From positions 37,501-101,500 of the forward strand of contig JBBHKE010003325.1 in the NCBI GenBank assembly GCA_037447655.1: DNA of 64,000 nucleotides, written 5' to 3'. A program made the translations under genes and the position numbers. The stretch is from Zygnema cylindricum (Eukaryota > Streptophyta > Zygnematophyceae > Zygnematales > Zygnemataceae). Positions 4,764 to 32,021 of this stretch are shown here, one piece after another. Position 1 is the first letter of the stretch; each line of letters opens with the position of its first letter. The notes below the pieces were generated by a model, which ran no database searches, had not been told where the DNA came from, and worked only from the letters and a program-made list of their open reading frames with translations.

Positions 4764-4805
4764 TAAACTGAACATAACCCTCAAATTAATTAGGAAACTA
4801 ACACC

Positions 4806-6726: not shown

Positions 6727-6793
6727 GGACTCAAGGGAGTCCAGGCTACAAAGGGGTGTAGTCGGTCGGAGTGTTTTTCTACCAGGGTGGCTG
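6727..6793 (+). ncRNA. Conserved hairpins in Copia leader RNA
   Basis: Three short hairpins follow in order: GGACTC-AAGG-GAGTCC, CTACA...TGTAG, and a CCA-GGG-TGG hairpin at 6780-6792. Other LTR copies keep the pairing, for example CTGCCA-AGG-TGGCGG near 10433 and CTGCCA-GGA-TGGCAG near 34000. They lie downstream of the TATA box, so they should be part of the 5' leader. Their role is unknown; packaging, dimerisation or translation control are possible. Confidence 0.5.
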
Positions 6794-7032
6794 CATTTCT
6801 AAGGGAAAGTCAAAGTGGGTGAATGTGTCCAAATCTCATATTTTAACTTTGCATTCTGTGGTGGAACTGAGCACACAGAAAGTGTTATTTCACAGGGGAT
6901 GAATCTATATTGGGGTTCTGACTATCACGGGGTCAGTCACTTGGGTTTATATCAACTTGTCGTTGGCACTATCTAGATTATCTTTTTTTGGATCTGCATA
7001 CTCAGAGGGCCAATGGAGGTCTCAGAGTTTCA

Positions 7033-7048
7033 GGTTATGGGCCCACCA
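7033..7048 (+). promoter_or_regulatory. Primer-binding site for initiator tRNA-Met anticodon arm
   Basis: GGTTATGGGCCCACCA begins right after the LTR end. It is the reverse complement of the anticodon stem-loop of plant initiator tRNA-Met (TGGTGGGCCCATAACC), not of its 3' end. Drosophila copia and yeast Ty5 prime with a cleaved half of initiator tRNA at this same arm. The site is kept at 30903-30917 and, with one change, at 48561-48575. Confidence 0.8.
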
Positions 7049-7836
7049 TCTAGGGTGCATATGTTCAATAGAATAGACTTCACTTATTGGGAGTTTACTA
7101 TGGAGGTATAGCTTTTCGAGAAGCACTTATGGGGAATTGTTTCGGGACAAGTGAGATGTTCGCCACCTGGCTTTGGAGGAGCTTACTATGGGGAATCGTC
7201 TAAGGCTGCCCAAAATATCAACCGGAGTTCAGATGCAACGAAAGGTGAAGGGAAAAACCTTTCCGTGGATGAAGAAATAGGGTAGAAGGAAAAAGGGACA
7301 CTTATGGTGAAGGGAGCTAAGCTCTCATCTATGGTACCACTTGTAGGGATTAAAATTGAAGAAAATGACAAAAAATTATGGGAATACAAAAACACTATAG
7401 CAAAACATCTCATACTTAGATACGTGTCGAAGTCCATAGCTATCACTCTTTTTAGTCTAAATAAGTCTTCAGAGATATGGGAATTACTAAGTCAGATTTA
7501 TAAAAGTGAGACTATTCAGAGGCAGCAATTAGTAAAACAGGAAATAGAGGCCTATGTTTATAAAGGCGGTAGCATGATAGAGTTTTGCAATGATGTTGCT
7601 GCGTTATATAATGAGCTTACTAGTGCGGGATATGTTGAATTTGAGGAGAGTACGATTAATACACTACTTATGAATATCCCAGATGAGTACGAAAACAACA
7701 TTTCTTGTATGCAGGCAATGGATGGCTCCTCATGGAATTGGAGCTTTACCATGGCGATAATTATTGTGAGGGAAAGCACTTTGGAGCTTCGTAGGGGAAG
7801 GGACAGTGTCAATGCATTTTCAGCTGGTGGTGATTG

Positions 7837-7955
7837 GCGGAAGCGTGATGAGAGGAATGGCGGTGACGAGCGGAAGCGTGATGAGAGGAACGGTGGTGAC
7901 GAGCGGAAGCGTGATGAGAGGAACGGTGGTGACGAGCGGAAGCGTGATGAGAGGA
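7837..7955 (+). repeat. 33-bp tandem repeat in gag
   Basis: About 3.6 copies of a 33-bp unit beginning GCGGAAGCGTGATGAGAGGA start at 7837, 7870, 7903 and 7936. Each encodes an 11-residue charged unit (RKRDERNGGDE) just before the zinc knuckle. The period is a multiple of three and keeps the frame open. Confidence 0.9.
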
Positions 7956-8025
7956 AGAAAAACAAAGGTAAACCTTATCAAAACTTTGGTGGAAAGAGAG
8001 GGAGAGGAAAAGAAAGGGGAGCTTT

Positions 8026-8595
8026 GAAAAAGGGGGTTGCTTCTTTTGTAGGGAACCGGGTCATTATATGGAGGAATGCTCTTGTTTGGAAAAACTTAGA
8101 AGTTGGAATGTGGATGAGGAGGACGAAGGGGAAGAGGAGAAAGAGGATGAAGAAATATTGGAGCTTCTTCACATCGGTAGAATGGAGAAGAGAGAGAAGT
8201 ACGCAGAAATTACACGAAAGCAACGATGTGCTTTTAGAGGTATAAGGGAAGTAAAAGGAAGGGAGGTACTTGAGGGAGTTAGAAATGATGAGGATGTGAA
8301 AGAGTGTAAAAAGTATGACTTAGAAATGAGAAAGTCAAATCTAGGATACATAAATGAAAAAGGGAAAAATAAAAATAATGAGGATAATTTTATAAATATT
8401 TTGGAAACACAAAACTGGTTGGAAAGGGAGACTTCAACGGATTTGGAGGAAAGGGGAGAAGTAAAACTAGAGGGGGTTTTAAAGGATAGGGGAGAAAAGA
8501 AATATTTAATGAAAATTTTAGGGGAGGAGAAATACTCTTTGGGAATCATTATAGAAAGTGATAGTGGAAAGAATTCCATGGGAGAGATATTTTAG
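8026..8595 (+). pseudogene. Gag zinc knuckle plus charged region, non-autonomous Copia
   Basis: The open frame continues from the knuckle CFFCREPGHYMEEC into an extremely acidic run (WNVDEEDEGEEEKEDEEILELL) and a charged tail with KKYDLEMRKSNLGYI. That tail resembles the integrase-RT linker of the full-length relative (GYRVYDLKRE at about 28500), so the region may be a gag-pol fusion left by a large internal deletion. The function of the acidic frame is unknown. It occurs again in the copy at 47252-47518. Confidence 0.55.
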
Positions 8596-9006
8596 AGCTT
8601 CTCCAGATTAGTAGTATGGGGAAGAGAGATCAACACACAGAAATTTCACGAAAGCAACAATGTTCTTTTGGAGGTATAAGGAAAGTAAAGAGAGAAGAGG
8701 TACTTGAGGATGTCCAGGAGTGTAGAGCGTATGACTTAGAAATGAGAAAGTCAGATCTAGGATCCATAAGTGAAAACGGGAAAGATAGAATTAATGAGGA
8801 TAATTTTATAGATAATAGGGAAACAGAAAACTGGTCGAAATGGGAGACTTTAACGAATTTTGAGGAAAGGGGAGAAGTGAAACTTGAAGAGGTTTTAAAG
8901 GATAGGGAAGAAGATGAATATTTGATTATGGTTTAAGGGAGAAGAAATATTTATTGGGAATTAAAATAGAAAGTGATAAAGGAAAAAATTCCATGGGAGA
9001 GAGTGA
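8161..9006 (+). repeat. Internal tandem duplication, about 434 bp
   Basis: Bases 8161-8594 and 8595-9006 align over most of their length. Both start GAGCTTCT, share CACGAAAGCAAC and GAGGTACTTGAGG, and end with a version of GAAAGTGATA..GGAAA..AATTCCATGGGAGAGA. The second copy encodes a separate frame at 8616-8936. Confidence 0.8.
8616..8936 (+). pseudogene. Second copy of charged Copia-derived frame
   Basis: This 106-residue open frame parallels the part of 8161-8594 after the acidic run: RKQQCSFGGIRKVKREEVLEDV, then YDLEMRKSDLGSISENGK. It lacks a zinc knuckle. It arose from the tandem duplication and has no independent start context, so translation as a separate protein is doubtful. Confidence 0.45.
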
Positions 9007-9117
9007 GGGAAGTTCAAAAAATGGGGTAGTTATCATGGATAAAGGTATGAAAACGAAAGATGTAGATCGAATGAGGAACTTAGAGGGGACTAGTGTTTTT
9101 TGGGAATATTTGGAGGT

Positions 9118-9262
9118 AGATGGATTTGACATCACTACTTGGTATGATGTCGCTTGTGAAGCTATGCTTGTAAAAGGGTTATCATCCGGGTATGTGTTGC
9201 AAGTTGGGTATGGGGCTGATTGTTGGAAATGCAAGAGGGAAAGTAGATTCTGGTTGGATTAA
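9118..9262 (+). pseudogene. Copia RNase H relic
   Basis: The translation contains DITTWYDVACEAM and SSGYVLQVGYGADCWKCKRE. These match the start of the Copia RNase H domain seen intact-like at 14598-14940 (SGYVLYVGDGAYCWSCKQQ) and 32085-32300. The catalytic MEAEY segment and the rest of the domain are missing. It confirms that the element arose by deletion of a full Copia pol. Confidence 0.7.
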
Positions 9263-9478
9263 AAAGGGAGGAGGTGGATAAAATCTTTGATCGGATATAT
9301 GAAAAGTGGCATGCAAAATAAAATGTATGATCGATAAGATGAAATTATTTCTGGTCATATAATACACTTTCTTAAATATAAAAGTATTCGCTTGAAGCTT
9401 CATGAAGGAAAAAATGACAATATATATATATAAATATGTATTTGTTGTTTTTGATGGGAGTTGAAAGTAAGTAGACTA

Positions 9479-9492
9479 GAAAATAAGGGGAG
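9479..9492 (+). promoter_or_regulatory. Polypurine tract
   Basis: GAAAATAAGGGGAG lies directly before the 3' LTR TG. The related minus-strand elements have AAAATAAGGGGA and AAATAAGGGGAG at the same place (about 14480 and 46600). It is the expected primer for plus-strand DNA synthesis. Confidence 0.8.
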
Positions 9493-10686
9493 TGTTGAAA
9501 TTTCAGTATTTTCTAGGTTTAGAGATTGTAAAAATAAAAGGCAAAAAGGGGACAGTGACAGCCCGCCTCTAACTCTTCACTCAAGTCCCCACACTTGTCG
9601 CAGTCACTGAAGACTTGAGGAGGAGTTGGATCCATGGCTGCCTAGGCTGTCTAAAGAGGACAAGAAGGCAAATCTTGATAGAGTTATCTAAAAGGTTTGA
9701 CGTATCCAGGATCTGATCATGGTACTTACCTTCCATCAAACTAGCCGTTAGCTTTAACCAATATGTCTAAAGCCAGTGCTAGAATATAGCTAGTTTGACA
9801 GATATTTATATTTTGACACTTAGACTAGTTCGTATAACGGAAAATAGATACGTAATGCATAGAAATAGTTTTGTATAGTACGGAGTACAATTTAATGTTT
9901 TTTATGAAACGGATACCGCGCATTTGTTTCGAACGCGAAACAAATATCGCGCGCGTATTTTCAACGACTACAATTGTATCCGGTTTGATCAGACGGCCAC
10001 GATAGGTGCCCCGATCACGGAACATGTACTTTTGGCGTTTTTTCAGCCATCGCCATTTCATGTGACACGTTGCGCAACAATGTTGAATTGCAGCGACTCC
10101 GGAGATTGCAGGAACAAATCCGGGTATGACACGTGTCGACAATTTGGCCATGTTTTACAATGGTCGTACAGAAAGTACATCGGCACCTGTACTTTTATGT
10201 ACGACACAGTAATTTGATTGGTGCCATACTTCAGTAGATAGAGTTTTAGAGGGGGAATACGACTTAGAAAATGTTGGGTAGGTAGCTGCCTCTCCCAGAG
10301 AGCACCTTGTATAAATGGCAATCTTTGGCCAGCCATAACTTTCAATTTAGGAGACCATTTGCAGTGATTTATTTTTCTATAGACTCAAGGGAGTCCATGC
10401 TACACAAAGGTGTAGTCGGTCTGAGTTTTTTTCTGCCAAGGTGGCGGTATTTCTAAGGGAAAGTCAAAGTGGGTGAATGTGTCCAAATCTCATATTCTAA
10501 CTTTGCATTGTGTGGTGGAACTGAGCACACAGAAAGTGTAATTTCACAGGGGTGAATCCATATTGGGGTTCTGAGAGTCAAAGGGTCAGTCATTTGGGTT
10601 TATATCAACTTAGAGTCGGCGCTTTGTAGATTAGCTTTTTTTTGGATCTGCATACTCTGAGGGCCAATGGAGGTCACAACTTTTCA
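9493..10686 (+). repeat. Copia family X 3' LTR
   Basis: It starts TGTTGAAATTTCAG and ends ACTTTTCA, followed by the AAAGT target duplication. It matches the 5' LTR along 1194 bp, with scattered substitutions and the same promoter elements (inverted repeat 10165-10203, TATA 10310-10316). Confidence 0.92.
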
Positions 10687-10691
10687 AAAGT

Positions 10692-11322
10692 GTTAAAACA
10701 TATCCATCCAAAATTACCGCAATCCAAATGGAAGCAACCCACTAATGTCACAGAAGTTAGATCATTTTTGGGATTGGCCACTTATTACAGGAAATTTATT
10801 AGGAACTTTAATATGATCGCCGCACCTTTGATAGATTTACTTCAAGAGAAGAAGACGTTAATGTGGGGAGCCAATCAAGAAAGACCTTTTGAGGAACTTA
10901 AGGGGAAAATGACCTTTGCCCCTACACTAATGTATCGTGATCTTGCTGGGGAATTTTAAGCTGATCACTATTGATGCATTTCATTAAGGTCTAGGTGCAT
11001 TTATAAGTCAAAAAGTTGGAAAACATTTTCATCCTATTGCTTTTGAGTCCAAGAAATTCAATGATGTTTGAATGAACGATCCGTCACAAGAAAAGGAATA
11101 ACTTGTAATAGTTCTTGCATTGGTGAAATGACATTGTTATTTGTAGATTAAAGAGTTTACAGTTCATTCTGATAATAAGGCACTCTCTTATCTACAAAGA
11201 TAAAGTGATCCACAGATTATGATAGGCAGACATGTTAAGTGGATGTAAAAATTGGCATATTTCAAATTTAATGTCAAACATATTATTGGAAAGACAAATG
11301 TAGTTGCGTTTCCTTTAAGAAG
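10692..11322 (+). pseudogene. Ty3 RT end and RNase H, decayed
   Basis: This is the continuation of the RT interrupted at 5840. The segment 10735-10959 reads TEVRSFLGLATYYRKFIRNF and FEELKGKMTFAPTLMY, the RT thumb and connection. RNase H follows only as fragments in several frames, with frequent stops. Removing the Copia insert brings the two RT halves together at GAGGAAAGT/GTTAAAAC. Confidence 0.8.
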
Positions 11323-12740
11323 ATGTTTAGAGATAAGCGTGATTGTTCGAATGAATTGTTATCAGATGTTGTTAGAAATGGTTATGATCAAGATCCTTAT
11401 TTTCCTGTAATTTGCAAGGATATTTTGGGAGGGAATTGTGACCCATTGAATGAGAGACATGTCAAAAACTTTATAATAGATGATGGTTTAATGTATTTGC
11501 GAACAGAGGATAGATTATGCATTCCTAAAATGGGAGACTTAAAAAAACAACTTTTACAAGAAGTCCATGAGCATTTACGACATCTAGGTCGAGATAAAAT
11601 TCTTTGTCGGTTGCACAGTAGATTGTTTTGGCCCAACATGGCAAAAGAGGTCTTTAAACACATGGAAAGTTGTGTCCCTTGCCAACACAGTAAACCTAGC
11701 AACAAAAACCTACAGGCTCTTAAAACCTTCAGATATTCAAGAAAGACCATGGGAATCTGTCAGTATGGATTTTATTGTGAGGTTGCCAGCTAAATCTAGA
11801 ACAAATGACAATATCATGGTCGTAGTCAATAGGTCCCTTGGAAAACTACTCTTTCAGTTGTAGATGTTGCAAAGTTATATTTTGACAAGGTGGTCAAAAA
11901 TCAAGAAGTCCCTTTGTCTATAGTCCGTGATAGGGATTCTAAATTTACAACTGAATTTTGGAAAGAATTGCAATAAAATTTAGGCACTGAATTAAGAATG
12001 AGTACCTCTTATCATCCTCAAACTGATAAACAGATAGAAAAGATGAACTGTACACTGGAAAAAATGCTAAGGGTTGCTTGTAGTGGAGTTCAAAACACAT
12101 GGGAATCTAAAATGAAATTTATGTAATTTGCATACAATTCATGTAAACATTTTAGCATAGGATTCCCACCATTTCAAGTCGCATACGGATACCAACAAAC
12201 AGAAGCATTAGACTTAATAACAGGGGTCACTCAAGAGAATATGGCATCTAGAACAGAGTTTTGGGAATACATTCAAATAGTTTGGAAAACAGATCGGGAT
12301 GCATTAGTGGAGTCACAGAGAAGGAAAGAATAAAATGCTAACCGCAAACAGGGTGATTTTGTGGTAAGCGTAGGTGACAAGGTTTGGCTTTCAATAACTT
12401 ATTATAGGTGTAAGATCGAGGGACAATCGAATCCTACAAGGAAATTTGCTCCTAAGTTCATCGGACCATTTACTGTAATCAAGATGATATCGTCAGTTGC
12501 TGCCAAATTGGACTTTCCACCTTCAACGAAAATTCATCCAGTGATACACATCACTCAGTTGAAACTAGCAACTTTTCGACCAACTGTATGAGAATTGGAA
12601 TTGGATCCCTCAATGATTATAGAACGTGAGGTCCACAAATGGGTAATAGATTCGGTTGGTCAACGGTTTAAGATCTGCAATACAAGTGCATAATCTATGA
12701 AGGCCAGAAGATGAGTAAATTTTAGAAGATAAAAGTTATG
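11323..12740 (+). pseudogene. Ty3 integrase, broken
   Basis: The zinc-binding part is clear: HEHLRHLGRDKILCRLHSRLFW, then CVPCQHSKP, an H2C2 domain. The catalytic core appears in pieces as SVSMDFIVRLP, VRDRDSKFTTEFW and HPQTDKQIEKMN, which give the D, D and E residues. The C-terminal part (KFAPKFIGPFTVIKM and HPVIHITQLK, 12361-12591) is the GPF-type module typical of chromoviruses. A chromodomain-like tail to about 12740 is possible but too decayed to assert. At least one frameshift and several stops are present. Confidence 0.85.
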
Positions 12741-14597: not shown

Positions 14598-15865
14598 CTA
14601 GACTGAATATTTGTTTTCTACTTTCTCTCTAACAAAGCTGAGCCTAATGTCCATGTGTTTGGCTTTAAAATGATGTTTCGGATTGGCAGAAATAGCGATT
14701 GCTGCCTGATTATCACAAAAAAAATTATGAACACCACTCTTAAGGTGACCAAGCTCACCAAGCAAATACTTGACCCATTTCATTTTTTTTACAGCACAGC
14801 AAGAGGCCATATACTCAGCCTCCATGGTGGACTGAGCAATAACCTTTTGCTGTTTGCAACTCCAACAATAAGCCCCATCACCTACATATAATACATATCC
14901 AGAAGTACATCTCCTCATCGGAGCATCACCATAACTGGCATCACTCTAAGTGGTGATGTCAGTATTCTCCCCACCCAAATGCAACCATAGATCCCTAGTT
15001 CGTATCAAATATATAAGGACTCATTTAGCTGCCTCCTAATCCCTCTTAGTGGAAGCATTTAGGCTTCTACTCAGCACTCCTACAGGTGCAGTTAAATGTG
15101 ACTGGGTAAAATTCATATAATAGATTAGACTTCGCACTACTTGTTTGTAAGGAATAGTCTGCATGAACTTCTATTCTTTAGGAGATAATTCCTCATCTAA
15201 GACTATGACTCCTTCTTCCTCACTCCCCTCACTTCCCTTCTTCAACTCCATTGGAGTTGTACAACTATTAGCTTTATCCATTTGAAATTTTTCAAGCATG
15301 TTCCCAAATGTTTCCTTTTGAGTCAATCTTATAATCTTTCTTTTTTGGTCTCTTTCAACTTGAATTCCCAAATATATTTTGCTTCCCCCATATCCTTCAT
15401 TTCATATCTCCCCTTAAGATCGGTTTTCAGTTTATTAAATTTTTCCATTGATTTACTTAAAACAAGCAAATCATCAACATAAATTGCAATAAATATAAAA
15501 CCTTCCTCATCTTCGAAAACATAGATTGAGTGATCTGAGCTGATCTAAATATATCCGAATCCGATAAAAAACTCATCAAGCTTCTTATTCCACTGTCGAG
15601 GCGCCTGTTTCAAACCATTAAGAGATTTAATCAACCGGCATACCTTACTCTCCTCTCCTTCTTCCACAAACCCTTCGGGTTGTCGCATGAAGATCTCCTC
15701 TTCCAATTCTCCATGCAAAAAGGCTGTTTTGATGTCCATCTGGTCCACTTCCATGTCTTCCGCTGCTGCCAAGCTGAGAAGTATGCAGACAGAGGGAAAT
15801 GTTACGACCGGGGCAAAGGTTTCCTCGTAGTCAATTCCCTCCTTTTGTGTAAATCCTGTCGTGTA
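14598..15865 (-). pseudogene. Copia RT (C-terminal part) and RNase H
   Basis: From 15865 leftward the translation reads GFTQKEGIDYEETFAPVV, MDIKTAFLHGELEEEIFM and NGLKQAPRQWNKKLDEF, then IYVDDLLVLS (catalytic YVDD, about 15470). RNase H at 14940-14598 has STMEAEYMASCCAVKK, NFFCDNQAAIAI and KHHFKAKHMDIRLSFVRE. Small frameshifts near 15540, 15370 and 15170 separate the pieces. The upstream RT part lies at 27155-27303, beyond the Ty3 insertion. The RT-RNase H would copy element RNA into DNA. Confidence 0.9.
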
Positions 15866-17264
15866 TGAGAGACTAGAAAGAGCGAACATGCATTCCAGCC
15901 AGCAAAGTCATGCTCCAAAATTATATACAAACGAAAAGTGAATGAGACGGGCAAAATGTATATACAACAAGCAAAAGAATAAAGGTGAAGATGACCAAAA
16001 GAATAAAAAGGGAAGAATACTCCACTAGCAAGAAGTGAATCCTATAATTGGGTTGGGTGGATGAAAAGGTAGCCAGTAGGCTCTTGGGTCTTCAACGTAT
16101 TCTTTACAAGAGTTATCTCATTAGAAAGCAACGAAGCAAAATAAATAATTCCAACCAAAAACAAGGGAAACTCCAAATTCGGCCAAAAATCACCCTTCAA
16201 TTCCCAACCGAAAATACAAACAACACAAATACCAACACCCAAACCGTTCAGCTGTCCGTGGGAAGGGCAGCCGGATCCGGATGCTTCTCCACACGAACTC
16301 CAATCCACCACTTCCCAAATATGACACAAGTTGGAGGGAAACCTTACGGACTTGGCTTTGAGCCGCGTGGATTAAAAACGTGGGCAAAATTACAAAGGAG
16401 AATGTACGTAAAATATCTAGCCTCTACATCTAGCTAGCAAAAGAAAGAAAGCAACTTGAGCAATCGGTGAGAGAGAGAGCAAGAGAAAAGCTCCGCCGCC
16501 AAGAGAAAATTCTTGTCCAAAAGCTAGAAATTCTAAGTCTGAAAATGGACTAAGTATTAGCTACGCTACGCCTACGCAAACCCTAACCTAAGTCTAGGCT
16601 AGTTCACATGAAATAACTACTTAGAATGTTGGCCAATAGGCGGCCAACATTGTCTGCCGCACGTTCCGCATAATCCATTGTCCGAGGGTAAAAACCCTCC
16701 CTAACTACATGTATGCGCGAACCTACATGGGTTCGCGACTTAAATAAACATATGTATCGAAGCGTCGCTCGGAAATCGCGATACGCCTCCAAACGATACT
16801 TCACGTCGATACTCCCAAAATCGCGTGCGTACGCACGAAACGAAACATATCGCACGAAATATATGGTATCGCACGAAATACTTGAAAAATGTGTACCTGC
16901 GTACGAAACGACATGGTACCACGCACGAAATTAGTATTTGTTCTATTAGACGTGTACGCGAATTGCGTACACGTCAAACATAAATAAATCGCGGTCGCAC
17001 GTGCAACCAAAAATCATACACGCACGCCGAAATATTGTGCGTGCGAGAATGATATCGTGCGCGCGTGAATGAAATCACGCGCGCGCCGAATATTGCGCGC
17101 GCGTGCACGATATCGTGCCCGTGGACCAAATATTGCTCGTGCGTGAACCGTATTGTGCACGCATGCAAAATATCGCGCGCGCGAGCACAATATTGTGCGT
17201 GCGTGCGCGATATCGTGTACGCATGCAAAATGTTGTGCGCGCATGCGTCTGATACCATGCGGCA
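15866..17264 (-). repeat. Left (3') LTR block of methyltransferase Ty3
   Basis: Bases 16068-17264 match 25954-27152 almost base for base. The outer 200 bp (15866-16060) are not present at the right end but recur at 17273-17465. The strand-wise start TGCCGCATGG and end CACGACA give a TG...CA frame. It contains 20-bp CpG-rich repeats, a TATTTAAG promoter-like motif near 16740 and a leader-like stretch beginning GGCGGCGGAGCTTTTCTC. Confidence 0.7.
17032..17247. repeat. 20-bp CpG-rich minisatellite in LTR (left copy)
   Basis: About eleven units of roughly 20 bp follow the pattern ATATYGTGCGYGCGTGNANN. Most units start ATAT and contain alternating CG/TG runs, and several are locally palindromic (for example CACGATATCGTG). 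The array is at the U3 end of the LTR. Confidence 0.85.
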
Positions 17265-17272
17265 TGATAGCT

Positions 17273-17465
17273 GTCGTGCATGAGAGACAAGAAAGAGCGA
17301 ACATGCATTCCAGCCAGCAAAGTCATGCTCCAAAATTATATACAAACGAAAATGAATGAGACACGCAAAATTTATATACAATAAGCAAAAGAATAAAGGT
17401 GAAGATGACCAAAAGAATAAAAAGGGAAGAATACTCCCCTAGCAAGAAGTGAATCCTATAATTCC
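17273..17465 (-). repeat. Second copy of the 190-bp LTR-end segment
   Basis: It aligns with 15866-16058 from TGTCGTG(C/T)ATGAGAGAC to AAGTGAATCCTATAATT with a few changes. It sits between the LTR block and the polypurine tract. Either it is the true start of a longer LTR, or it remains from a recombined or solo LTR. I cannot decide which. Confidence 0.7.
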
Positions 17466-17474
17466 CCCCCCACA
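17464..17474 (-). promoter_or_regulatory. Polypurine tract of methyltransferase Ty3
   Basis: On the minus strand GTGGGGGGGGAAT, with eight consecutive G, directly precedes the 190-bp segment and follows the integrase-PHD stop codon at 17480. The location fits plus-strand priming. Confidence 0.6.
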
Positions 17475-17479
17475 GCTCC

Positions 17480-18553
17480 TTAGCCTGCGGAGGAGCTGGT
17501 CAAAACCGCTGGCAGCTCACGAGAGCCATGGCAAAACCAATGGCCACCTGGCACAGCTGTCAATGGAGGAACTAAACACTCCATGTGGAACCCTTGGTTA
17601 CAATGGTCGCACAAGAGCATGGAAGTCTCGCCGTATGCTCGCCTGCAAATGGTACATTCCGTCGTCTCTGTGATGGGCATCCTCATCGGATCCATATCCT
17701 GTGACAAATCCGGTAAGTAACAAGGTGCACAGTTCTTCGAATGCTCTTGAATTATCCTTGTATCCGCACCCTGCAAACCCAACATCCCATTAGCATATAT
17801 TTCCACCACACGAAGAATGTGTGGTGAAACATCCGTGTCCAAAGTGTCAAAAGATTGTCGACAAAGGTAAACGTAATCTCCGACTTGGTAAGATTTCAGT
17901 TGAGGCTTGTATTTTCCACTTGGCGTAGTGGCAAAGCGCATGGTATCCCGTTGTTGGGCAATCTGCAAATTATCAAAAGCCATGGGCATCTCACGAGCGA
18001 AAAGCAAAGCACGGTGAGTTAGTTCTTCCAAGAGAATGGTGTCAGACATTAGAGGCAAAGGTAAACTTGCTGCTTTCTGAATATTCCGACCGAGCAAGGG
18101 TGCTCGGCCGAAGAGAATATAGTACGGGCTCAAATTAGCCAAACTACCGTGTACAGACATCCGGTACCCCATGGTGATATAGCCCAAGGATTCGTCCTAG
18201 ACGGAGATATGTTTCTCCAAACAATGCTTTCGAAGGGCCCGCTTGAATGTTTGGACAGCTCGTTCCGCCAAGCCATCGGCTTGTGGGTGATCACGACTCG
18301 TTCGGCGATGATCAATTAAATTTTCATCCAACATCTCTTGAAATTCCCCTCGGAACTACGTACCCTGGTCCGTGAGAACCTCCGCAGGAGCTCCATAACG
18401 CATGAGAACGTGCTCTTTAAAAGCAGCAGTGGTCAATTTAGCGATCTTGTGGGGAAGAGCGACCACCTCTACCCACTTGCTAAAATTTTCAATCATTATC
18501 ATGATGTATTGTTTCCCCTTTCGAGATAAGGGAAACGGTCCGGCGAGATCCAC
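17480..18553 (-). pseudogene. Ty3 integrase core with C-terminal PHD finger
   Basis: The frame continues from the zinc-binding domain across an in-frame TAG at 18557. The core shows VDLAGPFPLSRKGKQY, LTDQGT and HPQADGLAERAVQTFK, giving the D, D and E catalytic residues. TAG stops lie after LTDQGT (about 18353) and near 18195. The open part 17480-18187 (235 residues) has YQVGDYVYLCRQ, a GPY/F-like C-terminal module, then a PHD finger. Integrase inserts the cDNA into chromatin; a terminal reader could guide it. The stops fit CAG-to-TAG or TGG-to-TAG transitions. Confidence 0.87.
17523..17659 (-). other. PHD-finger domain at integrase C-terminus
   Basis: In order: CTIC, then LLCDHC, GFHMEC, LVPPLTAVPGGHWFC. 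The spacing and the PPL..VP.G.W.C signature are those of a C4HC3 PHD zinc finger, a reader of histone H3 tails in many proteins. The expected last zinc ligand is a serine (WFCHGS) instead of cysteine, a possible inactivating change. Chromoviruses usually carry a chromodomain at this position instead. Confidence 0.85.
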
Positions 18554-18556
18554 GGA

Positions 18557-21500
18557 CTAGCGATAAAACAATCCTCTGATAGGCAATGGCTGTAGAGACA
18601 CCTGCCGATTAGAGAAAAAGGTGCGTAGCTGGTCGCATGTGGCGCATTTATGGAGAATGGCCGCCACATCCGCTTGCATTCCGGACCACCAATAGCGTGC
18701 CTGTAAAAGGCTCAAAGTACGCTTGGTCCCATAATGGCCAAGCTCGATATGTATCTGCTTAATCAAGGACAAGCGCTCGGTTGGCCGAGGAACATGCCGA
18801 TGACTGTTGTCCGCCAGCAATCGAAATAAAGATCTGTCGAGCCACAGATAATTTTTTGCTCGTTTCTTTACTCGGTCTTCCTCCTCAGCGGTATTACGGG
18901 GCCGAAGTGTTTGAGAGGAGAGGAAGAGGATTAATGGGCAGTCGCGCCACGGGTTTGTGGCCGGTCGAGGGTGAGGAACAGAAGAGAGACAGTAAGTGAT
19001 ATAGGAACCAATCGACATCATTGGTACCTCATCCTCGTCGAAATCTTGCCGGACTGCGTTATCGGTGGTCCAAGGTAATGGATTCAAAGAAATCCAGTCG
19101 GCGTTCAAGCTTAACAAAGTGGGCCGATGGATGATCTCAACGTCGTACTCTTGTAAAATTAAAGCCCATCGGGCAAGCTTCCCTGAAAGCTTATCGTTGG
19201 TCATCAACCAATGAAGGGGTTGATGATCAGTTAGGAGCGTGAATGGCTTGCCGTAAAGATAATGTCGAAAATGAACAATACCCCATACCGCGGCGAGACA
19301 TTCACCCTCATAACTACTGTAATTAGATTCAGCTCGGTTATTGCTCCGGCTAGCGTATGCCACTACGTATTCCTCTCCATTCAACTCTCTTTGCGTTAAA
19401 ATAGCCGCAATGCCTGGCTTCCCGAAATCGGTTTGTAGGCAAAAGGGAAGCTTGTGGTTAGGAGGTCGAAGAATGGGAGCGCTAGAGAGGGCGGTTTTCA
19501 GTTTTTGAAACGCTTCTACTTGGGCGGGTCCCCAAACAAAAGGCACTTCTTTTTTGAGAAGGTCATTGAGGGGAGAAGCAATCGTACTAAAATTTAGTAC
19601 AAACCGACGGTAATAATTGGCTAGTCCGAGAAAAGCCCTCAGACTAGTGAGATCTGTGGGAGCTGGCAATTTCGTGATTGCCTCTACCTTAGCTTCCAAG
19701 GGGGTGATGCCCTCAGCCGAAATAAAATGGCCGAGGTAGGGCACTCCCTCCGCACCGAACGTACACTTGGCTGGGTGACACTTCAGCCCGACTTTCTTCA
19801 ACTCGGTGAGAACCCACTCAATATGGCGGGCGTGTTCCTCGACCGTGGCGGAAGCGATTATCAAGTCATCGATGTAGCACCGGGCAAATTTACATCCACC
19901 CAGCACCGAATCCATGACTTTTTGAAACACGGCGGGTGCGTTTTTAAGACCGAAAGGCATGACTGCCCATTCCCACCGACCATCACTGCCCCAAAATGCA
20001 GTTTTATGCCGATCTCTTTCCTCGATTTCAATCTGGTTAAACCCTTGACGCAAGTCAAGAATGCTAAAGAACTTTGCACCACCTACATGGTCAAATATTT
20101 CCTCCGCTAGAGGCATAGGGTGGCGGTCTTGAACGGTCCGAGCATTGAGCTCTCGATAGTCCCCACACATTCTTCGCTCAGTAAAATTTCCGTCGGAATC
20201 TTTCTTCCTAGGCATGACTGTGGGGGCGGCAAAGGTGGAATCCGACCGATAGATTAGACCGGCTTCTTCCAATTCAGCGCATCTTTTGTCCACCATCTCC
20301 CATTCCATTTCAGAGAGACGGTGTTTCGGCTTAAAGATAGGTCGATCGTCTTCAAGGTCGATAGACATTTTGTAAGTAGAATGACGTCCAAGGTCATTCA
20401 TGGAGAAAGCAAACGCATCTATATGACGGGTGACTGTGTCACTTAATAGTGCCTGTTCCGCCATTGTGAGACTGGAACCGAACTTCCACTTGGGCGTCTC
20501 CGGACTCTTAATAGTGAAAGCTTCCATTGCCTGAGCAAATGCAATTTGCTCATCGGCGATGAGTGAGTGGCCTAACTCGTATTTTACCGGAGTTTGCTGC
20601 AAGCAATTCACCCAATGGTGCCAGCTACGCGTCGGAAATGCAGCTGTCCAGTGCGGTGGAGGGCCAAGAAACGATGAAATTGTGGATTGAACGGCTGTAT
20701 AGGCCGGGATTTCCCAAGACATATGACTGGGGTTGAGGAAATCATAGATGGAGATGTCCTTAACCGCCGGTGTGAGAGAAGGGAAGAGAAAAAACTGAAA
20801 TGGATTTCCCTTTAGACTAGGAGAGGTGCGAGAGGAAACAAGCCGTGAAGGAGCCGCTATATTCCCCCCCCCAGCTGGTTGCACGGGGTGATTCTGTGCG
20901 TAGCGACCAGCTGCAAGGCCGAGACCTAAGACAAATGATAAAGATTGAGGATCCATGACCCTACCCAACAAAGTGCAACGCTGTCTATCCGTAAGGCCGG
21001 GGGCCGCAGTCGTGCCTGGAATAAAATGCATGAGATGTTCCCGTTCTGTGGCAGTAGGCTCCTCTAACTCTCCAGTGACATTATTCCGGAGCATGCCTGG
21101 ACCGTTATGAGAGTATGCATGGGAATTAGGGTAAGACACTAAAGTAGGAAGCACCTTGAGGGGCTGGCCAGGAACATTAATGTTGTAATTCGGAGGGTAG
21201 TCAGATTGGACACAAGATTGGACTTGGTGGAAGGGAAGCAAAGCGGTCGTAATGTCTATAGTCGGAGGTCGTACCGACAAATTAGCCTCACGAAGACGAC
21301 CAACATCGATTAGGTTCGTCCATTTGGAGCGAACCCGATGTGCCAAGGACCCATGCCGAGCGGCATCAATAATTAGCGGGGGTCCGATAAGATGTTCTAT
21401 GCGCTTATAGTCAGCCAGAACTGTTGGCCGAGGATCATTATAAGCGGCGACGTTCTCTAAAATGTATCCGACAGGCTTGGCCATGGTTTGAAGAAAACGA

Positions 21501-21589
21501 AGGACCCTCAAAAGCTCAAAAAACAATTTGGTACGGGGATCCGCCAAACCAAGACCTTTGCCGGCCCGAGAATGCCTTGACACTCCCAC
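18557..21589 (-). pseudogene. Methyltransferase end, RT, RNase H and integrase zinc domain
   Basis: An open frame of 1010 codons. Residues 1-100 hold the C-terminal methyltransferase motifs (GYILENVAAY, SLAHRVRSKWTNL). Residues 100-380 are an unassigned linker. RT spans about 415-690, with MCGDYRELNARTVQDRHPMP, FSILDLRQGFNQIEIEE, MPFGLKNAPAVFQ and YIDD at 572-575. RNase H spans about 714-830 (LQTDFGKPG, YEGECLAAVW, LLTDHQPLHW). The integrase H2C2 domain is near 947-985 (HIELGHYGTKRTL, CATC). Its start is only the first usable codon after a frameshift, not a natural start, and it ends at TAG 18557. All RT and RNase H catalytic acids are present. Confidence 0.92.
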
Positions 21590-21890
21590 CCTTCGAAAAC
21601 AAGGTCTATCGGTTGGACATCCCGGAGATGATGATTACTAAGGATGCGGATGTCTTGTGGAAGAGCAGTGTGCATGTGTAGAAAGGCTGACTTTGGAAAC
21701 AAGTGAGGATACTGGGAATGCAGAAGATTACAGTGGTGCAATAGTGCTTTCCTAGCTAATGCATCAATTTCTACTGCATAGTAGTGACGGATGAGGAGAC
21801 CATTCCGCAAACATGACAATAGTGAAGTGCTGATCCCAGCGAATAGATCTAATATAACGACCACGTCTCTATAAGGACTCAGCTGTACGG
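21300..21890 (-). pseudogene. Cytosine-5 DNA methyltransferase domain inside Ty3 pol, frameshifted
   Basis: Motif I is VVVILDLFAGISTSL (S-adenosylmethionine binding), followed by YYAVEID. Motif IV is FEGWECQG, with the catalytic cysteine but Glu where Pro is usual. Motif VI is GYILENV with the catalytic Glu. A motif VIII-like HRVRSKWTNL resembles the DRM/DNMT3 type. The domain is short (about 195 residues). Directly after CQG the frame shifts (about 21571), consistent with one lost base, so motif IV and motif VI are now in different frames. It would transfer a methyl group to cytosine in DNA. It lies between protease and RT. Confidence 0.85.
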
Positions 21891-22554
21891 GCTTCCAACT
21901 GATTGGGAGGAAACCCGAAGGATCGGTTGCCACTGTAGGTATAGGAGGGATAGGCGTTAATGGAATAGATAACGTGGACTTATAAATACTGTCAAATGTG
22001 TGAGAATTAATAAGAAAACCCGGTTCCGCAAAGAGCTCGGGTAAGGGGGAACTATCCTTTATAATTTCTTCAGCCGAAAGAGAGTGGAAAATTTCCTCCC
22101 CAATGGAGTTCCCCAAAAATGCGATAAGAGTTGTAGCCGAGTGAGCCATAGTGGGCAAAGGTCGGCGGGCTGAAATGAGAGAGAGGCAAAATTTGCGCTC
22201 CGGAAAGTGTGTCGGTCGGTAAGAAAATGTTTGGTCGTGCATGTCCACACCACCGCCAACTCGGAATATAACGTCTTGACCCACCAAACACTCATAGTCG
22301 TCACATTTAGTGACTAATGCTCTGACTGCAATTTCAACAGACTCATTTTCGGTTCCTGTCTCAAACCAAAAGATGAGCGGGTCCTTTGTGATTCCGAGGA
22401 CCGGCTCCGTGGTCCCAGCCGAAGTAAGAAGACGGGTAGTGGTCGTCTAAAGCTTGTCTGCTGTCACACTAAGCTTGAGCGCAAATCCGGATTTGAGGAT
22501 CACAGGTTTCGCCCCGATGTCCATGAGAGGAAGAGTGGGATGAACACCGTTCAT
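21571..22554 (-). pseudogene. Retropepsin-like region and methyltransferase N-terminal part
   Basis: The frame from ATG 22554 begins near PLMDIGAKPVILKSGFA, a degenerate D-S/T-G-A aspartic protease motif with Ile in place of Ser/Thr. An in-frame TAG at 22447-22449 breaks it; 22287-21508 is then open. After the protease come a proline-rich linker (PLTPIPPIPTV) and methyltransferase motifs I-IV. Protease and methyltransferase are in the same frame and may have been one polyprotein. Confidence 0.7.
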
Positions 22555-22667
22555 TGAGAATTATCCCCGTGAGTTATCAAGGAAACTGATATGGGGATCG
22601 AGATTACGACGCTCTTCCGTAGTAACAGGTTGAACCGCTGAGAGACTGCGGTTTAACGGCAGAGCCC

Positions 22668-24520
22668 TCAAAGCGGCTGCCGCTGCGACCTCATCAACGA
22701 GGGGACATCCTCCAGCATTGCGGAAAAAATACTTAATCGCTCCTTTACCCGATGAGCCTCATGAATAGTGCCATCCAATATGGTCAATGCCTCTTCCGCG
22801 ATGGAATGAACTATCTCCGTTAGGGAAGGCAAATGCTCTTTTGCAAATGAGAGTGGGACACGAGAATTTTGTAATTTGCCAACTAAGTTATGATCTGCTG
22901 AGCCCTTTTCAAATGTGGCCACCCGTTGTTGGACGGTGGAATCCCAAAGGGTTTGCCTGGCCAACAACGGCATGTGGACAACGGTCTTGGCCATCCCAGT
23001 AAACTGGGGTTTCATTTCATCTATGAAAGCAGCAAATTGCTCTTTCATCATAGCCGCCATTGTGGCTTGAAGCTCGGCCTTCTCTCTCTCTCTACGAGAG
23101 ATCTTAGGTGAAGCTTCCTCTTTCGCGGTCTCTTTAGGTGAAGTGACGGGTTTCGCAGAACGGGTTGGAATTTCGCCATTCTTTAACTTATTTTGATAGG
23201 TGAAATTAGGGTCCTTGATGTGGCACCGATGGACATAATGTCCAGTTTGGTGACAATGGGTGCAAGTGGCCGCCTTGTCGGGACACATGCGAGCATCGTG
23301 CCCGGTTTTTTCACATCCAAAACACATTCGGTTCTGAACTAGAAGGTGGAGTTCCCATGGCTGGCGTCTTCTAGGGCCTATTGGGAGGCCATGGGTTTTT
23401 AGGTGGAGGAGGAGATGGATAAACTAGTTCTCGGTGAGGAGCTTTGGAACGCTCATGGGCCTCCCACCAAGATGTCTGCATCTCATACTCTACCGCGTAT
23501 TGAGCCGCTTGCTCAAAGGTGAATTTCAGTCGATACATCTGGCTGAGGTAGTTTTTGATAAACCTCTTTGATGGACCTAGAAACTGTCCCACAAATTTTT
23601 GGACTGCCTCCGCATCGGACATGAGGTCCGGTAATCCTTCCCGCAGAGTTTCCATCCGAGCTCGCAAGGCAGGGGCAGTTTCACCTGGCCTACGCTCGAA
23701 GTTCATTTACTCTTTGATCTGATTCGGATTTTGCATGCGGTACTCCTCTTGGAGGATGTCAAACATGACTGAGAGAGGGTCACGTAAGGGAATGGTGCCC
23801 CTCGCTCTAGGTAGGACTGCCGCTTGGGCAGCCACTGCATACTGACGGGGAACCTCGGGGATAGCTGGATACAACTCGTCCCCATTGGCATCTAATACAG
23901 CTGGTCTTGGTGCCTGATATGGGATATCCACTTGGCTTAGGACTTCTGGTAACCCCGCAAAGGGAGCCACGTATTCTGTTATCGCAAGCACATCCTCGTA
24001 CTTGCGAGTGTAGAGTGTAAGGGTCGTAACGCGGAGGTATCGACTGAGAAGGGAAAAAGCGACACGGAGGTCAAACCTATCCTGATATCTAAATGCTAAA
24101 TCTCTAATTTTCGTATCGTATAACATACGAAACTGCGATAAGGACATGGTGTCCTTCAATCCGGAAAAGCAAAATTGCATCCTATCGATCCCTCAAAAGA
24201 GGAAGCCATGTCGTAAAAGGAAGGATGGGTCGGTTGTGCCAAAGCTCGATTGGCAAGGAACCTACGAGTGTGAGGAATAAGAAAGGTTTCCTCCGGGAAG
24301 TCTTCTTCGGTCCCCTCTAGGTATGACCTAGATGAAACTGAGGACAGCGATGACAAATATGTGAGACCAGACTGCACTAAAGCGATCTGCGATCCGCAAT
24401 TGGATCGGATGTGGTCCACGATTCGGGAAAATCCAAAGGATTTAAGTGCGGAGGACGATAGAGTGTACCTCCTCGGGTGGACCCCGATAAATATTGAAGG
24501 TTATCCCAATCTGTGGGCAT
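22668..24520 (-). pseudogene. Ty3 gag with two CCHC knuckles, broken
   Basis: The probable start is ATG 24520 (MPTDWDNLQYLSGS). Frameshifts occur near 24420 and 24175. The frame 24180-23707 is joined in frame to 23706-23371 by a single TAA between QIKE and MNFERRPGETAP, the latter being the capsid C-terminal signature (ERRPGE...LRARMETL). After a stop and a frameshift near 23370-23330, two CCHC knuckles follow: CFGCEKTGHDARMC and CTHCHQTGHYVHRC. A charged tail (REREKAELQATMAAMM) ends at 22668. Gag builds the particle and binds RNA. Confidence 0.85.
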
Positions 24521-25953
24521 AAACAAAGGGGAAAACCCTGACTACAATAATGAAATGTTTCGAACGACCTAACCGAGATGCAACACGTGTCAGACCAATC
24601 CACTCACCCAGTCAACACACTCAGTCACTATCAAGACCCGATGGTCATATCTAGCAAGAAGCCGGTTAACTAAAACCTCTACCTTGCAAACAGTTGGCAA
24701 GGCCAAAAGGCCAAATCTATAAAACCAAGAAAATTGCTATCGAGGCACCTTTGGGTGCAGATCTACAACAACACAGCCGGGAAAAGGTCTACACAGTGCC
24801 ACCCACGGCAAGATCTAGGAAGAAATCCCACTCCTGATAGTCACACGAAAATCCAAGGCCACTTAGGGCCAGATAGCATGCAGGGAAAGCAAGAAAATGC
24901 AAATGCTCAATAAGAAAGGTTCACAATGGAACCAATCCACACCGCTCCCCTACACGCGTGTCTACAGGAAATCGGAACGCTCTTGCACCCGCAAGGCATC
25001 GACTACTTATAGACACCTTTAGTACTCTGGTGAGCACTAAGGGTGAACCGAACTTGTTCAAAGCAAGTCGGGTTTTGCAAAGCTCCCGATGATAAAATTC
25101 GCTCCACGAAATTCGCTCCACGCAACGTCTCCCAAAATAACCCTCTGTACCGTGAAGATGTACGTCGTGGAATGTTAGGGAACCTATAGAAGGGGCAAAA
25201 ATAACGTTGGGTGGATGAAAAATAGCCAATAAGAAGAACAAAGGTGATAGATAGGAAAAGGGTGTTAGAATAAAGTCGTAAGCCGCTCAAACTCTAGATA
25301 TACAACCAATCTGGTGACCACAATACTCCAAAGCCAGCGGCCAACCCTAATTCCACTTGAAAAATCGTAATTCCACTTGAAAAATCTATATTCCAAAGCC
25401 AAAACCTAATTCTAGACGACTAAAACTCAAAATCTGCAGCCAAGGAATAGAAGGATACCGTCTTAAGGACTAGAATAAAAAGGAATAAACCCCAAATCTG
25501 CTGCAACCCTAATTCTGCAGCCAAAACCCTAATTCTGCCTCCAAACCCTAATTCTGCAGATTAACCCTAATTCTGCAGATTTACCCTAAATTTGATACAA
25601 AATTTAGGTTTAACACTAAAGCCAAGAAATATATTGTGGCAGAATAAGAGACAAAGATTTAAAGAAAGAAATAGCGGAAACAAAAACAAAATGTTTTTTT
25701 TTTCTTTTTCCTTTTTTTTTATAAAATAAAATTTATAAAATTAATTAATTTTGAGATATTTTTCTTTCAAATCAAAACTGAAAACGAAATGTAAATTGGA
25801 AAGAAAATAGAAGAGGCCAAGCTATGAATTAAAACTGAAAATGAAAGGTGATATTTTTTTTCTTTTATAAAATAAATTTGATATTTTTATTAATTAAATT
25901 CAAATAAAAGCTTTTGAAATGCAAAGCCTTTTGGACAAGAATACTCAGCCACA
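24521..25953 (-). other. Long leader of methyltransferase Ty3
   Basis: The 1.4 kb between the right LTR block and gag. No conserved coding was seen and I found no clear primer-binding site. It includes a doubled AAATTCGCTCCACG near 25097, short repeats (25345-25390, 25491-25592) and an AT-rich tract at 25680-25900. Confidence 0.5.
25491..25592. repeat. Short tandem repeat, unit CCCTAATTCTGCAG plus spacer
   Basis: Four clear copies of CCCTAATTCTGC (three followed by AG) lie 17-20 bp apart, flanked by degenerate ones (CCCAAATCTGC, CCCTAAATTTG). CCCTAA resembles the plant telomere repeat, but the unit as a whole does not. Confidence 0.8.
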
Positions 25954-27152
25954 AGGTAGCCACTAGGCTCTTGGGTCTTCAACGTATTCTTTACAAGAGT
26001 TATCTCATAAGAAGGCAACGAAGCAAAATAAATAATTCTAACCAAAAACAAGGGAAACTCCAAATTCGGCCAAAAATCACCCTTCCATTCCCAACCGAAA
26101 ATATAAACAACACAAATACTAACACCCAAACCGTTCAGCTGTCCGTGGGAAGGGCAGCCGGATCCGGATGCTTCTCCACACGAACTCCAATCCACCACTT
26201 CCCAAATATGACACAAGTTGGAGGGAAACCTTACGGACTTGGCTTTGAGCCGCGTGGATTAAAAACGTGGGCAAAATTACAAAGGAGAATGTACGTAAAA
26301 TATCTAGCCTCTACATCTAGCTAGCAAAAGAAAGAAAGCAACTTGAGCAATCGGTGAGAGAGAGAGCAAGAGAAAAGCTCCGCCGCCAAGAGAAAATTCT
26401 TGTCCAAAAGCTAGAAATTCTAAGTCTGAAAATGGACTAAGTATTAGCTACGCTACGCCTACGCAAACCCTAACCTAAGTCTAGGCTAGTTCACATGAAA
26501 TAACTACTTAGAATGTTGGCCAATAGGCGACCAACATTGTCTGCCGCACGTTCCGCATAATCCATTGTCCGAGGGTAAAAACCCTCCCTAACTACATGTA
26601 TGCGCGAACCTACATGGGTTCGCGACTTAAATAAACATATGTATCGAAGCGTCGCTCGGAAATCGCGATACGCCTCCAAACGATACTTCACGTCGATACT
26701 CCCAAAATCGCGTGTGTACGCACGAAACGAAACATATCGCACGAAGTATATGGTATCGCACGAAATACTTGAAAAATATTTACTTACGCACAAAACGACA
26801 AGGTACCACGCACAAAATTAGTATTTGTTCTATTAGACGTGCACGCGAATCGCGTACACGTCAAACATAAATAAATCGCGGTCGCACGTGCGACCGAAAA
26901 TCATACACGCACGCCGAAATATTGTGCGTGCGAGAATGATATCGTGCGCGCGTGAATGAAATCACGCACACGCCGAATATCGCGCGCGCGTGCACGATAT
27001 CGTGCTCGTGGACCCAGTATTGCGCGTGCGTGCACCGTATTGTGCACGCATGCAAAATATCGCGCGCCCGAGCACAATATTGTGCGTGCGTGCGCGATAT
27101 CGTGTACGCATGCAAAATGTTGTGCGCGCATGCGTCGATACCATGCGGCATG
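25954..27152 (-). repeat. Right (5') LTR block of methyltransferase Ty3
   Basis: It is the near-identical partner of 16068-17264. Many differences that I could align by eye are C/T or G/A transitions, several of them at CpG. Its inner end (25954) lacks the 200-bp end segment of the left block. Its outer end abuts Copia RT at the target duplication. Confidence 0.75.
26919..27134. repeat. 20-bp CpG-rich minisatellite in LTR (right copy)
   Basis: The same eleven-unit array as 17032-17247, with changes such as GCGC to ACAC and TATTGC to TATCGC. The array existed in the LTR before insertion. Confidence 0.85.
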
Positions 27153-27154: not shown

Positions 27155-27585
27155 AATCCCTTTGCCACTAATCGGGCCTTGTAGCGCTCGATTGTGTTAT
27201 CTGGGTTCAGTTTTAATTTGAAAACCCACTTACAATCAATTGGTTTTCGGTTAGGTGTACAATTCACTAGCTCCCAAGTATCGGCTGCCATAATTGAGGC
27301 CATCTCCTCATTGATGGCTGTCTTCTACCGGTTTCTTTCTGGACAAGTTATCGCCTCTTTATAATTCTAAGGTTTATTTTGATGAGATAGTTTTGTTACC
27401 TTGTTATTAACCTATTTTTCTTGCAATCTTTTGCTACTTCTCCTTCCCCTCTCAAAATATGAGGCCGGAATAGATGGTTCTCGTGGATTCTTTCGAACAA
27501 TCTCAGCTTCTCCCCTATCCCTTGATTCTGAATGAGTTTCCACCACGTCTTTTGCCTTTGGTAGAGTTGTCACAGGAGTTTCTCT
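27155..27585 (-). pseudogene. Copia integrase-RT linker and RT N-terminus
   Basis: The minus-strand translation includes ADTWELVNCTPNRKPIDCKW and IERYKARLVAKG, the canonical Copia RT start (WxLV...CKWVFKxK...YKARLVAKG). The frame then runs into the Ty3 element. Upstream, a hydrophilic linker (VETHSESRDRGEAEIVRK, PSIPASYFERGRRSSKRL) connects to the integrase end beyond the LTR at 27586. The other half of RT starts at 15865. Confidence 0.88.
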
Positions 27586-28323
27586 TGTTCTGAGACAACT
27601 GCTGGTACTGAAGATGAAGAAGATGCAACACTAGTCATCGTAGAACAAAACAAGAGAGGAAGCTTCCACAAATTCCGATGGCTGAACAGCAACTTTGACA
27701 GACTATAACTTTCAGAAAAACTTTCAAAACATCCTGAAAATGTGCCACAATTTAGATAACATAAAAAGAAACACACACACAAAATTTCAATCAATTCCGC
27801 TAACATATCTGTGAGATATTAAGAAATGAAATTACATAAAACTGAGTGTACAGTTTTCATATCATTTGTTCCTAAAAATCAAATTCACTAAGTCCTACTT
27901 TTATACACTGAAACTACACTAAGCTGTACGGAGGCATTCCAGCCGTACATCTAACATTCTATCACAAATATTTACACCGAAGTTTTAGACAACGTAAAGT
28001 GATAATGATCTAGTCACGCCTCGTCACTATTTGTTGGCGGTGGCTGTCAGCGGTCCGATTAGAGGATTTGGCACCAAAGAATTGACTTCACGAAGTCCAG
28101 TGGTCCTGCCGAATTTCCGTACGTCCACGGAGGACATACTCACGCATTCTCCTAAGTGACGACACGTGTCCCAAGTGTGAATGAACCGTGAACTCCCAAC
28201 TTCACTGTCACACCAATTTCGGTAAGTACTGAACCAAACTCAACCAAAAATAGCTAAAGTCCTGAACAGCTCTCTCCCTCACAACTGAGGCATAAAGAGG
28301 ACTAAAGCTTTCTATAAACAACA
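27586..28323 (-). repeat. LTR of another Copia-like family (Y), copy 1
   Basis: It is 738 bp with TG...CA ends (TGTTCTGA and AACAACA on the plus strand) and is almost identical to 31289-32021. It interrupts the Copia linker; sequence on both sides shares a short GAAA overlap, but no clean 5-bp target duplication is visible. Orientation is inferred from an S-rich gag-like start (MTSVASSSSSVPAVVSEQ) 53 bp before the minus-strand end. It is probably a solo LTR. Confidence 0.6.
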
Positions 28324-30917: not shown

Positions 30918-31288
30918 TGAAACGCTGAGACCTCCATAAGTCCTTAGAGTGGACAGCTTCCAAGAAGCCTCTAGGATAATCATAACCCCTTTGTGTTTAA
31001 GCAAAAATTATTGCCACCCTGGCAGACAAAAACTCTGACCACCTGCTCTCGTATGAAGACAAGACTCCCCTGAGTCGATAGCAAAAAGAATCTCTGAATT
31101 TGCTCCCTTTAGCAGTATGTTATGGAGGGTCAAAGTTGACCTTTTGTACAAAAGCTCTCTGGGAGAGAGGGTCCTATCTTCTAATTTTTCTAAGTCCTAT
31201 TTCTCTCACAAACTCTATCTACTGATGTACGGAACCAATCAAAATACAGTTCCGTACGCAAAAGTACAGCTGTCCGTTTACTTTATGT
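30918..31288 (-). repeat. 5' LTR of minus-strand Copia, truncated
   Basis: It matches the last part of the 3' LTR (13398-13770), including the leader hairpins (GACTC-AGGG-GAGTC) and one arm of the GTAC inverted repeat. It stops at 31288, where LTR Y copy 2 begins. Confidence 0.8.
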
Positions 31289-32021
31289 TGTTCTGACACA
31301 ACTACTGGCACTGAAGATGAAGAAGATGCAGCAGTAGTCATCGTAGAACAAATCAAGAGAGGAAGCTTCCACAAATACCGATGGCTGAACAGAAACTTTG
31401 ACAGACTATAACTTTCACAAAAAACCCTCCAAACGTCATGAAAATTTGCCACAATGTAGCTAACATACAAAGGAACACACACACAAAATTTCAATTAATT
31501 TCGCTCACAAATCTGTGAGATATGTAGAAATGAAATTACATAAAACTGAGTGTACAGTTTTCATATCATTTGTTCCTAAAAATCAAATTCACTAAGTCCT
31601 ACTTTTATACACCGAAACTACACTAAGCTGTACGGAGGCATTCCAGCCGTACATCTAACATTCTATCATAAACATTTACACCGAAGTTAAGACAACGTAA
31701 AGTGATAATGATCTAGTCACGCCTCGTCACTATTTGTTGGCGGCTGTCAACGGTCTGATTAGAGGATTTGTCACCGTAGAATTGACTTTACGAAGTCCAG
31801 TGGTCTTGCCGAATTTCCGTACGTCCACGGAGGACATACTCACGCATTCTCCCAAGTGACGACACGTGTCCCAAGTGTGAATGAACCGTGAACTCCCAAC
31901 TTCACTGTCACACTAATTTCGGTAAGTACTGAACCGAACTCAACCAAAAATAGCTGAAGTCCTGAACAGCTCTCTCTCACAACTGAGGCATAAAGAGGAC
32001 TAAAGCTTTCTAAAAACAACA
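31289..32021 (-). repeat. LTR family Y, copy 2
   Basis: The 733 bp are nearly identical to 27586-28323. On the left it abuts a truncated Copia LTR, and on the right a plus-strand Copia RNase H fragment. The flanks (TATGT and GAGGT) do not match, so it may mark a deletion or recombination junction. Confidence 0.65.

Follow-up and report, generated by a model that had tools for sequence, protein, structure and literature searches.

Why would a retrotransposon carry a cytosine-5 DNA methyltransferase of its own, when DNA methylation is one of the main means by which hosts silence mobile elements? This paradox is posed by a 64,000-nucleotide stretch of Zygnema cylindricum DNA (GenBank assembly GCA_037447655.1, contig JBBHKE010003325.1, positions 37,501 to 101,500 of the forward strand), hereafter the window, in which a Ty3/gypsy-type element lies on the minus strand. 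Its pol region holds a DNMT3-like cytosine-5 methyltransferase domain between the protease and the reverse transcriptase. Our favored reading, which we hold with somewhat more confidence than doubt, is that this is a dead copy of an element whose pol gained the methyltransferase and that the enzyme would be active on element DNA in intact relatives.

A preliminary description of the window had read four motifs (LDLFAGISTSL, WECQG, GYILENV and HRVRSKWTNL) as a methyltransferase inside a Ty3-type pol, and both the motifs and their setting are borne out by the family profile and the domain order. The four lie in the claimed order on the minus strand across two open reading frames (ORFs), LDLFAGISTSL and GWECQG in 22446-21508 and GYILENV and AHRVRSKWTNL in 21634-18557, and the frame break that separates the two methyltransferase pieces falls within motif IV. 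A protein search with the second piece returned a single protein, P0001 (gag-protease-methyltransferase; 46%), a search from P0001 returned 72, and a ten-domain profile search gave 1033 matches among the 7994 candidates scored, with the best 120 of the 1033 listed. The last member is P0131 (E 2e-28), followed by a gap to other methyltransferases from P0132 (E 1e-18) and weaker beyond; the family is therefore P0001 to P0131, at least 131 database proteins, many of them fragments. Of the window's 1192 six-frame segments, the two pieces alone score well against the family profile (E 8.1e-22 for the first and 4.2e-63 for the second, on a scale of 5.77 billion sequences), the next value being 1.3. 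A chance motif match was rejected with a control of 20 shuffles plus the reversed window (25755 segments), in which the best score was 7.8 bits versus 231 and 96 for the pieces. The profile search that had been proposed as a check is thus strong with the family's own profile and weak with curated libraries, which respond to the second piece only and under their cut-offs (Pfam DNA_methylase E 0.028, NCBIfam dcm E 0.0013); the first piece had no match in the Pfam and NCBIfam scans or in a PDB search.

The domain had been called unusually short, but motifs IX and X (LPTLVSYP..., EREHLMHF... and RQRCTLLGR...GLGLA) run on to about 20903, past the limit assumed for it, and it is full length. Motifs I to X stand in canonical order, and DNMT3 is nearest by sequence profile and by fold. 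We write DNMT3-like rather than DNMT3 because the window reads Glu-Cys, not Pro-Cys, in motif IV. The preliminary description had found the C-terminal motif DRM/DNMT3-like; of these two, DRM was rejected because motifs VI to X do not precede I to V. A bacterial or phage methyltransferase was rejected as well, since DNMT3 is nearest and viral contigs gave 9 loci at 24-38% identity.

The element that surrounds the domain has the following parts.

15856..27152, minus strand: whole nested element, Ty3/gypsy-type gag-pol (TG...CA ends and GGAT(T) duplication; outer limits accurate to within a few bases)
25953..27152, minus strand: repeat A1, the element's 5' end (97.3% identity to A2 across 1201 columns)
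23446..24186, minus strand: gag-like region, broken by a stop (38% identity to P0001 residues 7-253; ORFs)
23223..23324, minus strand: two CCHC zinc knuckles in a different frame (CX2CX4HX4C twice, read from the sequence)
22204..22617, minus strand: aspartic protease remnant, its active site DIGA followed by a stop (residues 584-721 of P0001, 38% identity)
21571..21870, minus strand: first piece of the methyltransferase, holding motifs I to IV with GWECQG (family profile 7-110, E 8.1e-22)
20903..21574, minus strand: second piece of the methyltransferase, from beyond motif IV through motif X (E 4.2e-63; positions 110-338 of the 343 in the family profile)
19727..20182, minus strand: reverse transcriptase core (PF00078, E 2.5e-29)
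19145..19453, minus strand: RNase H (PF17917, E 6.4e-35)
18629..18784, minus strand: integrase zinc-binding domain (PF17921, E 1e-14)
18070..18556, minus strand: approximate extent of the integrase core, interrupted by one stop or more (P0003 aligned in one frame over 20500-17531; ORF cut between 18557 and 18196)
17528..17656, minus strand: PHD finger 3' of the integrase, last Cys ligand missing (PF00628, E 1.1e-10)
17271..17463, minus strand: repeat B1, immediately downstream of a polypurine tract containing eight G (95.9% identity to B2)
16066..17266, minus strand: repeat A2 (repeat comparison with A1)
15856..16049, minus strand: repeat B2, the element's 3' end (repeat comparison with B1)

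The coding order of protease, reverse transcriptase, RNase H and DDE integrase is that of Ty3/gypsy-type elements, with the methyltransferase set between the first two; P0001 residues 584-721, the counterpart of the window protease, match Pfam gag-asp_proteas. The insertion site is a copia reverse transcriptase, whose frame reads LVAKG before the element and FTQKEG after it. The element ends in TGACATG...CACGACA and is flanked on both sides by a 4-5 bp target duplication, GGAT(T). Such TG...CA ends, a short duplication and a polypurine tract before B1 are those of an integrase-type long terminal repeat (LTR) element, and the ends and duplication fit the DDE integrase that the coding part has. 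A canonical element would have one complete LTR per end, whereas here the repeats are split in the order A-coding-B-A-B, with repeat A 1.2 kb long, which is the order of DIRS elements (PMC5890265, Fig. 1 legend). The copia remnants that hold the element also contain, or adjoin, a direct repeat of about 745 bp at 93% identity (27579-28323 and 31282-32021).

The window element is a dead copy. Beyond the break in motif IV, the integrase core has at least one stop, gag is spread over several frames with a stop, the protease active site reads DIGA, the last PHD cysteine is lost, and a His stands at a position where relatives have Gly in 69 of 69. A programmed frameshift in motif IV was rejected: relatives with the motif carry it within one protein, and the window copy is damaged elsewhere too. 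With the reading frames of methyltransferase, gag and integrase all interrupted and conserved residues lost, methylation by the window copy is very unlikely. The earlier suggestion that the element could methylate its own or host DNA is accordingly very unlikely to hold for this copy; for intact relatives it is plausible.

A methyltransferase tree was built from 111 family domains, both window pieces and 12 of 61 outside domains as the outgroup, with no curated reference set; the other 20 of the 131 family proteins were too short or of odd length. It separates clade A (25 rows; Shimodaira–Hasegawa-like approximate likelihood-ratio test, SH-aLRT, 84) from clade B (88 rows; 99), and the window pieces fall in clade A adjoining P0001, P0075 and P0090 (97). 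Named organisms in clade A are Mesostigma (P0069) and Closterium (P0070, P0092, P0107), both Streptophyta; those in clade B are Haematococcus (P0065), Chromochloris (P0079, from its tag Chrzof1, which we take to denote that genus) and Cymbomonas (P0115), all Chlorophyta. That all seven named proteins, from five genera, are green algal hints at a green algal family, the other EukProt rows (tag biopygen) carrying no species. On this distribution, the host of the window element would be expected among the Streptophyta. One further element of the family, L010, occupies positions 1-8227 of a contig assigned to the bin of a Synechococcales cyanobacterium (AVDCRST_MAG81) and is probably algal DNA within that bin. 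It has long open frames, with domains read by eye and from the reverse transcriptase tree: the first ORF, open at the contig start, encodes gag-protease-methyltransferase with GWPCQG, and the second, in the same frame after one stop that may be read through, encodes reverse transcriptase-RNase H-integrase with a PHD-like end.

The Glu ahead of the catalytic Cys, already remarked on in the preliminary description, is real and a family trait: among the 124 of 131 proteins with this column, it is Glu in 88, Pro in 33, Ser in 2 and Gln in 1. Pro stands there in 60 of the 61 outside methyltransferases, a contrast weakened by the way these were chosen, through shared words (CQDLS, for example) that favor Pro-type motifs. 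With 91 of 124 members lacking the Pro, the domain could be a catalytically dead helper of the DNMT3L or DRM3 kind that recruits or steers host methyltransferases to the element or keeps them off; rice DRM3, which keeps the Cys but has no Pro, is predicted to be inactive (PMC2965745). Such a helper, however, need not keep the catalytic Cys (124/124), the motif VI Glu (121/122) or Arg-x-Arg (120/123), nor would its Glu and Pro forms be expected to alternate as they do, switching 9 times or more on a tree of 122 rows that includes the outgroup and the window pieces. We therefore regard a helper as unlikely: with the Pro lost but the other catalytic residues kept, the domain does not look like a dead enzyme. 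Among the positions listed, P0001 position 972 stands out in raw counts as changing along with Glu and Pro, but with 5 independent pairs it is not significant.

The same departure from Pro-Cys could instead mark an active enzyme with a changed substrate or chemistry, acting on RNA, an RNA:DNA hybrid or single-stranded complementary DNA (cDNA), or transferring another group. Most members do have Glu for Pro with the other catalytic residues tested retained, and the nucleic acid in a retrotransposon particle is, as is generally known, RNA and nascent cDNA. Yet Pro is kept in 33 of 124, so that both forms seem to do one job, the sequence holds no pointer to another cofactor, and the fold is DNMT3-like; we consider this proposal improbable.

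Is the domain a settled part of the element? Its place in pol follows the tree. In clade A (23 proteins) the methyltransferase precedes the reverse transcriptase in all 6 proteins in which the latter is seen, 8 more have a protease just before the methyltransferase, and 9 are unreadable; relatives with the domain at the same place in pol as in the window thus exist among the database proteins. In clade B (88 proteins) the reverse transcriptase comes first in 48 of 48, 13 more have an integrase directly after the methyltransferase, and 25 are unreadable. Wherever the reverse transcriptase is seen, the two layouts therefore match the two clades. Among the 20 proteins off the tree, it follows the methyltransferase in 3 and precedes it in 2. 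The methyltransferase tree needs one layout change among 67 labelled rows, a count for readable rows only, with P0015 and P0065 unlabelled. A reverse transcriptase tree (47 rows) also has one change, setting 8 rows against 38, with the larger group a single clade (100/100); it comprises family members and one poor outgroup that fills 19% of columns and does not fix the root. A PHD finger occurs in 48 of the 131 proteins, 47 of them in clade B and the other being P0003, the window's neighbor on this tree; literature searches for a PHD finger behind a Ty3-type integrase found no report of such a fusion.

Across 435 pairs the methyltransferase is as conserved as the reverse transcriptase, and it is therefore probably a working part of the element. 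That it is a passenger, a host DNMT3 fragment carried without function, might be supposed from the decay of the window copy and from the general experience that Ty3 elements manage without such a domain; conservation at the level of the reverse transcriptase, near-invariant catalytic residues and presence in two deep element clades make this highly improbable. Returning to activity on element DNA, we envision that in intact relatives the enzyme would be made within the gag-pol protein, stay with the reverse transcriptase and methylate freshly made element DNA no later than integration, giving the incoming copy the look of methylated host DNA. Insertion might be guided to certain histone marks by the PHD finger that follows the integrase, and Glu for Pro might tune the active site while leaving catalysis intact. 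The element's own new DNA is, by analogy, the most likely target, self-methylation having been proposed for DIRS elements by de Mendoza et al. (PMC5890265).

Several observations weigh against this account. RNase H (55.8%) and the integrase core (53.5%) are both better conserved than the methyltransferase. The proline before the Cys has been called invariant, its loss predicting inactivity (PMC2965745), and no methylation was seen when the Gypsy enzyme of Klebsormidium was assayed in yeast, a result called inconclusive (PMC5890265). Clade A has an SH-aLRT of just 84, and two clade-B proteins, P0015 (metagenome) and P0065 (a Haematococcus gene model), show a protease match upstream and no reverse transcriptase in the protein, leaving their layout unclear. 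Among the matches listed from a genome-contig search (25 loci), L010 is the one close relative, the other 24 lying at 22-33% identity.

A bolder reading is that an ancient Ty3-type lineage captured a DNMT3 near the base of the green plants and has retained it in working form in streptophytes and chlorophytes alike, the domain having shifted its place in pol between the two, and that most members are active with Glu, and hence with a changed substrate or chemistry on cDNA or an RNA:DNA hybrid. We think it doubtful, the more so because of the two clade-B proteins of unclear layout.

Elsewhere the window holds plus-strand remnants of a second Ty3 element at 3574-12390 (reverse transcriptase 5241-5748, RNase H 10738-10929, integrase 11503-12297), in which no methyltransferase match was found. 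Amid them, around 7286-8245, lies a copia-like gag (by eye), with a 33 bp tandem repeat in four copies (7826-7956) that keeps its frame (GGDERKRDERN). Several purine-rich arrays of GAGGGA-type repeats occupy 53664-63547, and plus-strand GC skew is about 0.8 in four of the five 2 kb steps over 54001-64000 and weaker (0.26) at 60001-62000.

How does the element compare with known systems? A Gypsy element that captured a DNMT3 has already been described: KnitGypsy-Dnmt3 of Klebsormidium nitens (de Mendoza et al. 2018, PMC5890265) has, like the window element, a DNMT3-type, non-rearranged methyltransferase in an LTR Gypsy pol, and its repeats are in DIRS order (Fig. 4 legend), as are the window's; the likeness is to the published description, not to the sequence. 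Among the family matches listed, most of which are nameless, none is labelled as a Klebsormidium protein. The dinoflagellate SymbioDIRS-Dnmt3 (DNMT3-type, methylating CG in yeast) and SymbioLINE-Dnmt are likewise captured cytosine methyltransferases in retrotransposons, but these are a DIRS element with a tyrosine recombinase and a LINE, whereas the window's is an integrase-bearing Ty3-type element (PMC5890265). The preliminary description had spoken of captures by LTR elements in dinoflagellates and a charophyte; the published dinoflagellate cases are not LTR elements. No printed account of the family's extent, its two layouts or the Glu substitution turned up in the open-licence literature, supplementary files and repeat libraries lying outside that search. 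The catalytic domain of DNMT3A/3B/3C is the best profile and fold match, with the same motif order I to X and about 24% identity in structural alignment; the family differs in the Glu before Cys of most members and in its fusion into pol, and the PWWP and ADD domains described for animal DNMT3 (PMC12344493) were not seen in the window element. Chromoviruses, Ty3 elements with a chromodomain, similarly carry, where pol ends in the integrase, a domain that may read chromatin, but the window element has a PHD finger in its place and a methyltransferase besides. Where there had been one Gypsy case in one alga, there is now a much larger family that keeps its catalytic residues as expected of a working enzyme, and its natural Glu/Pro pairs make the textbook rule of a Pro before the catalytic Cys directly testable.
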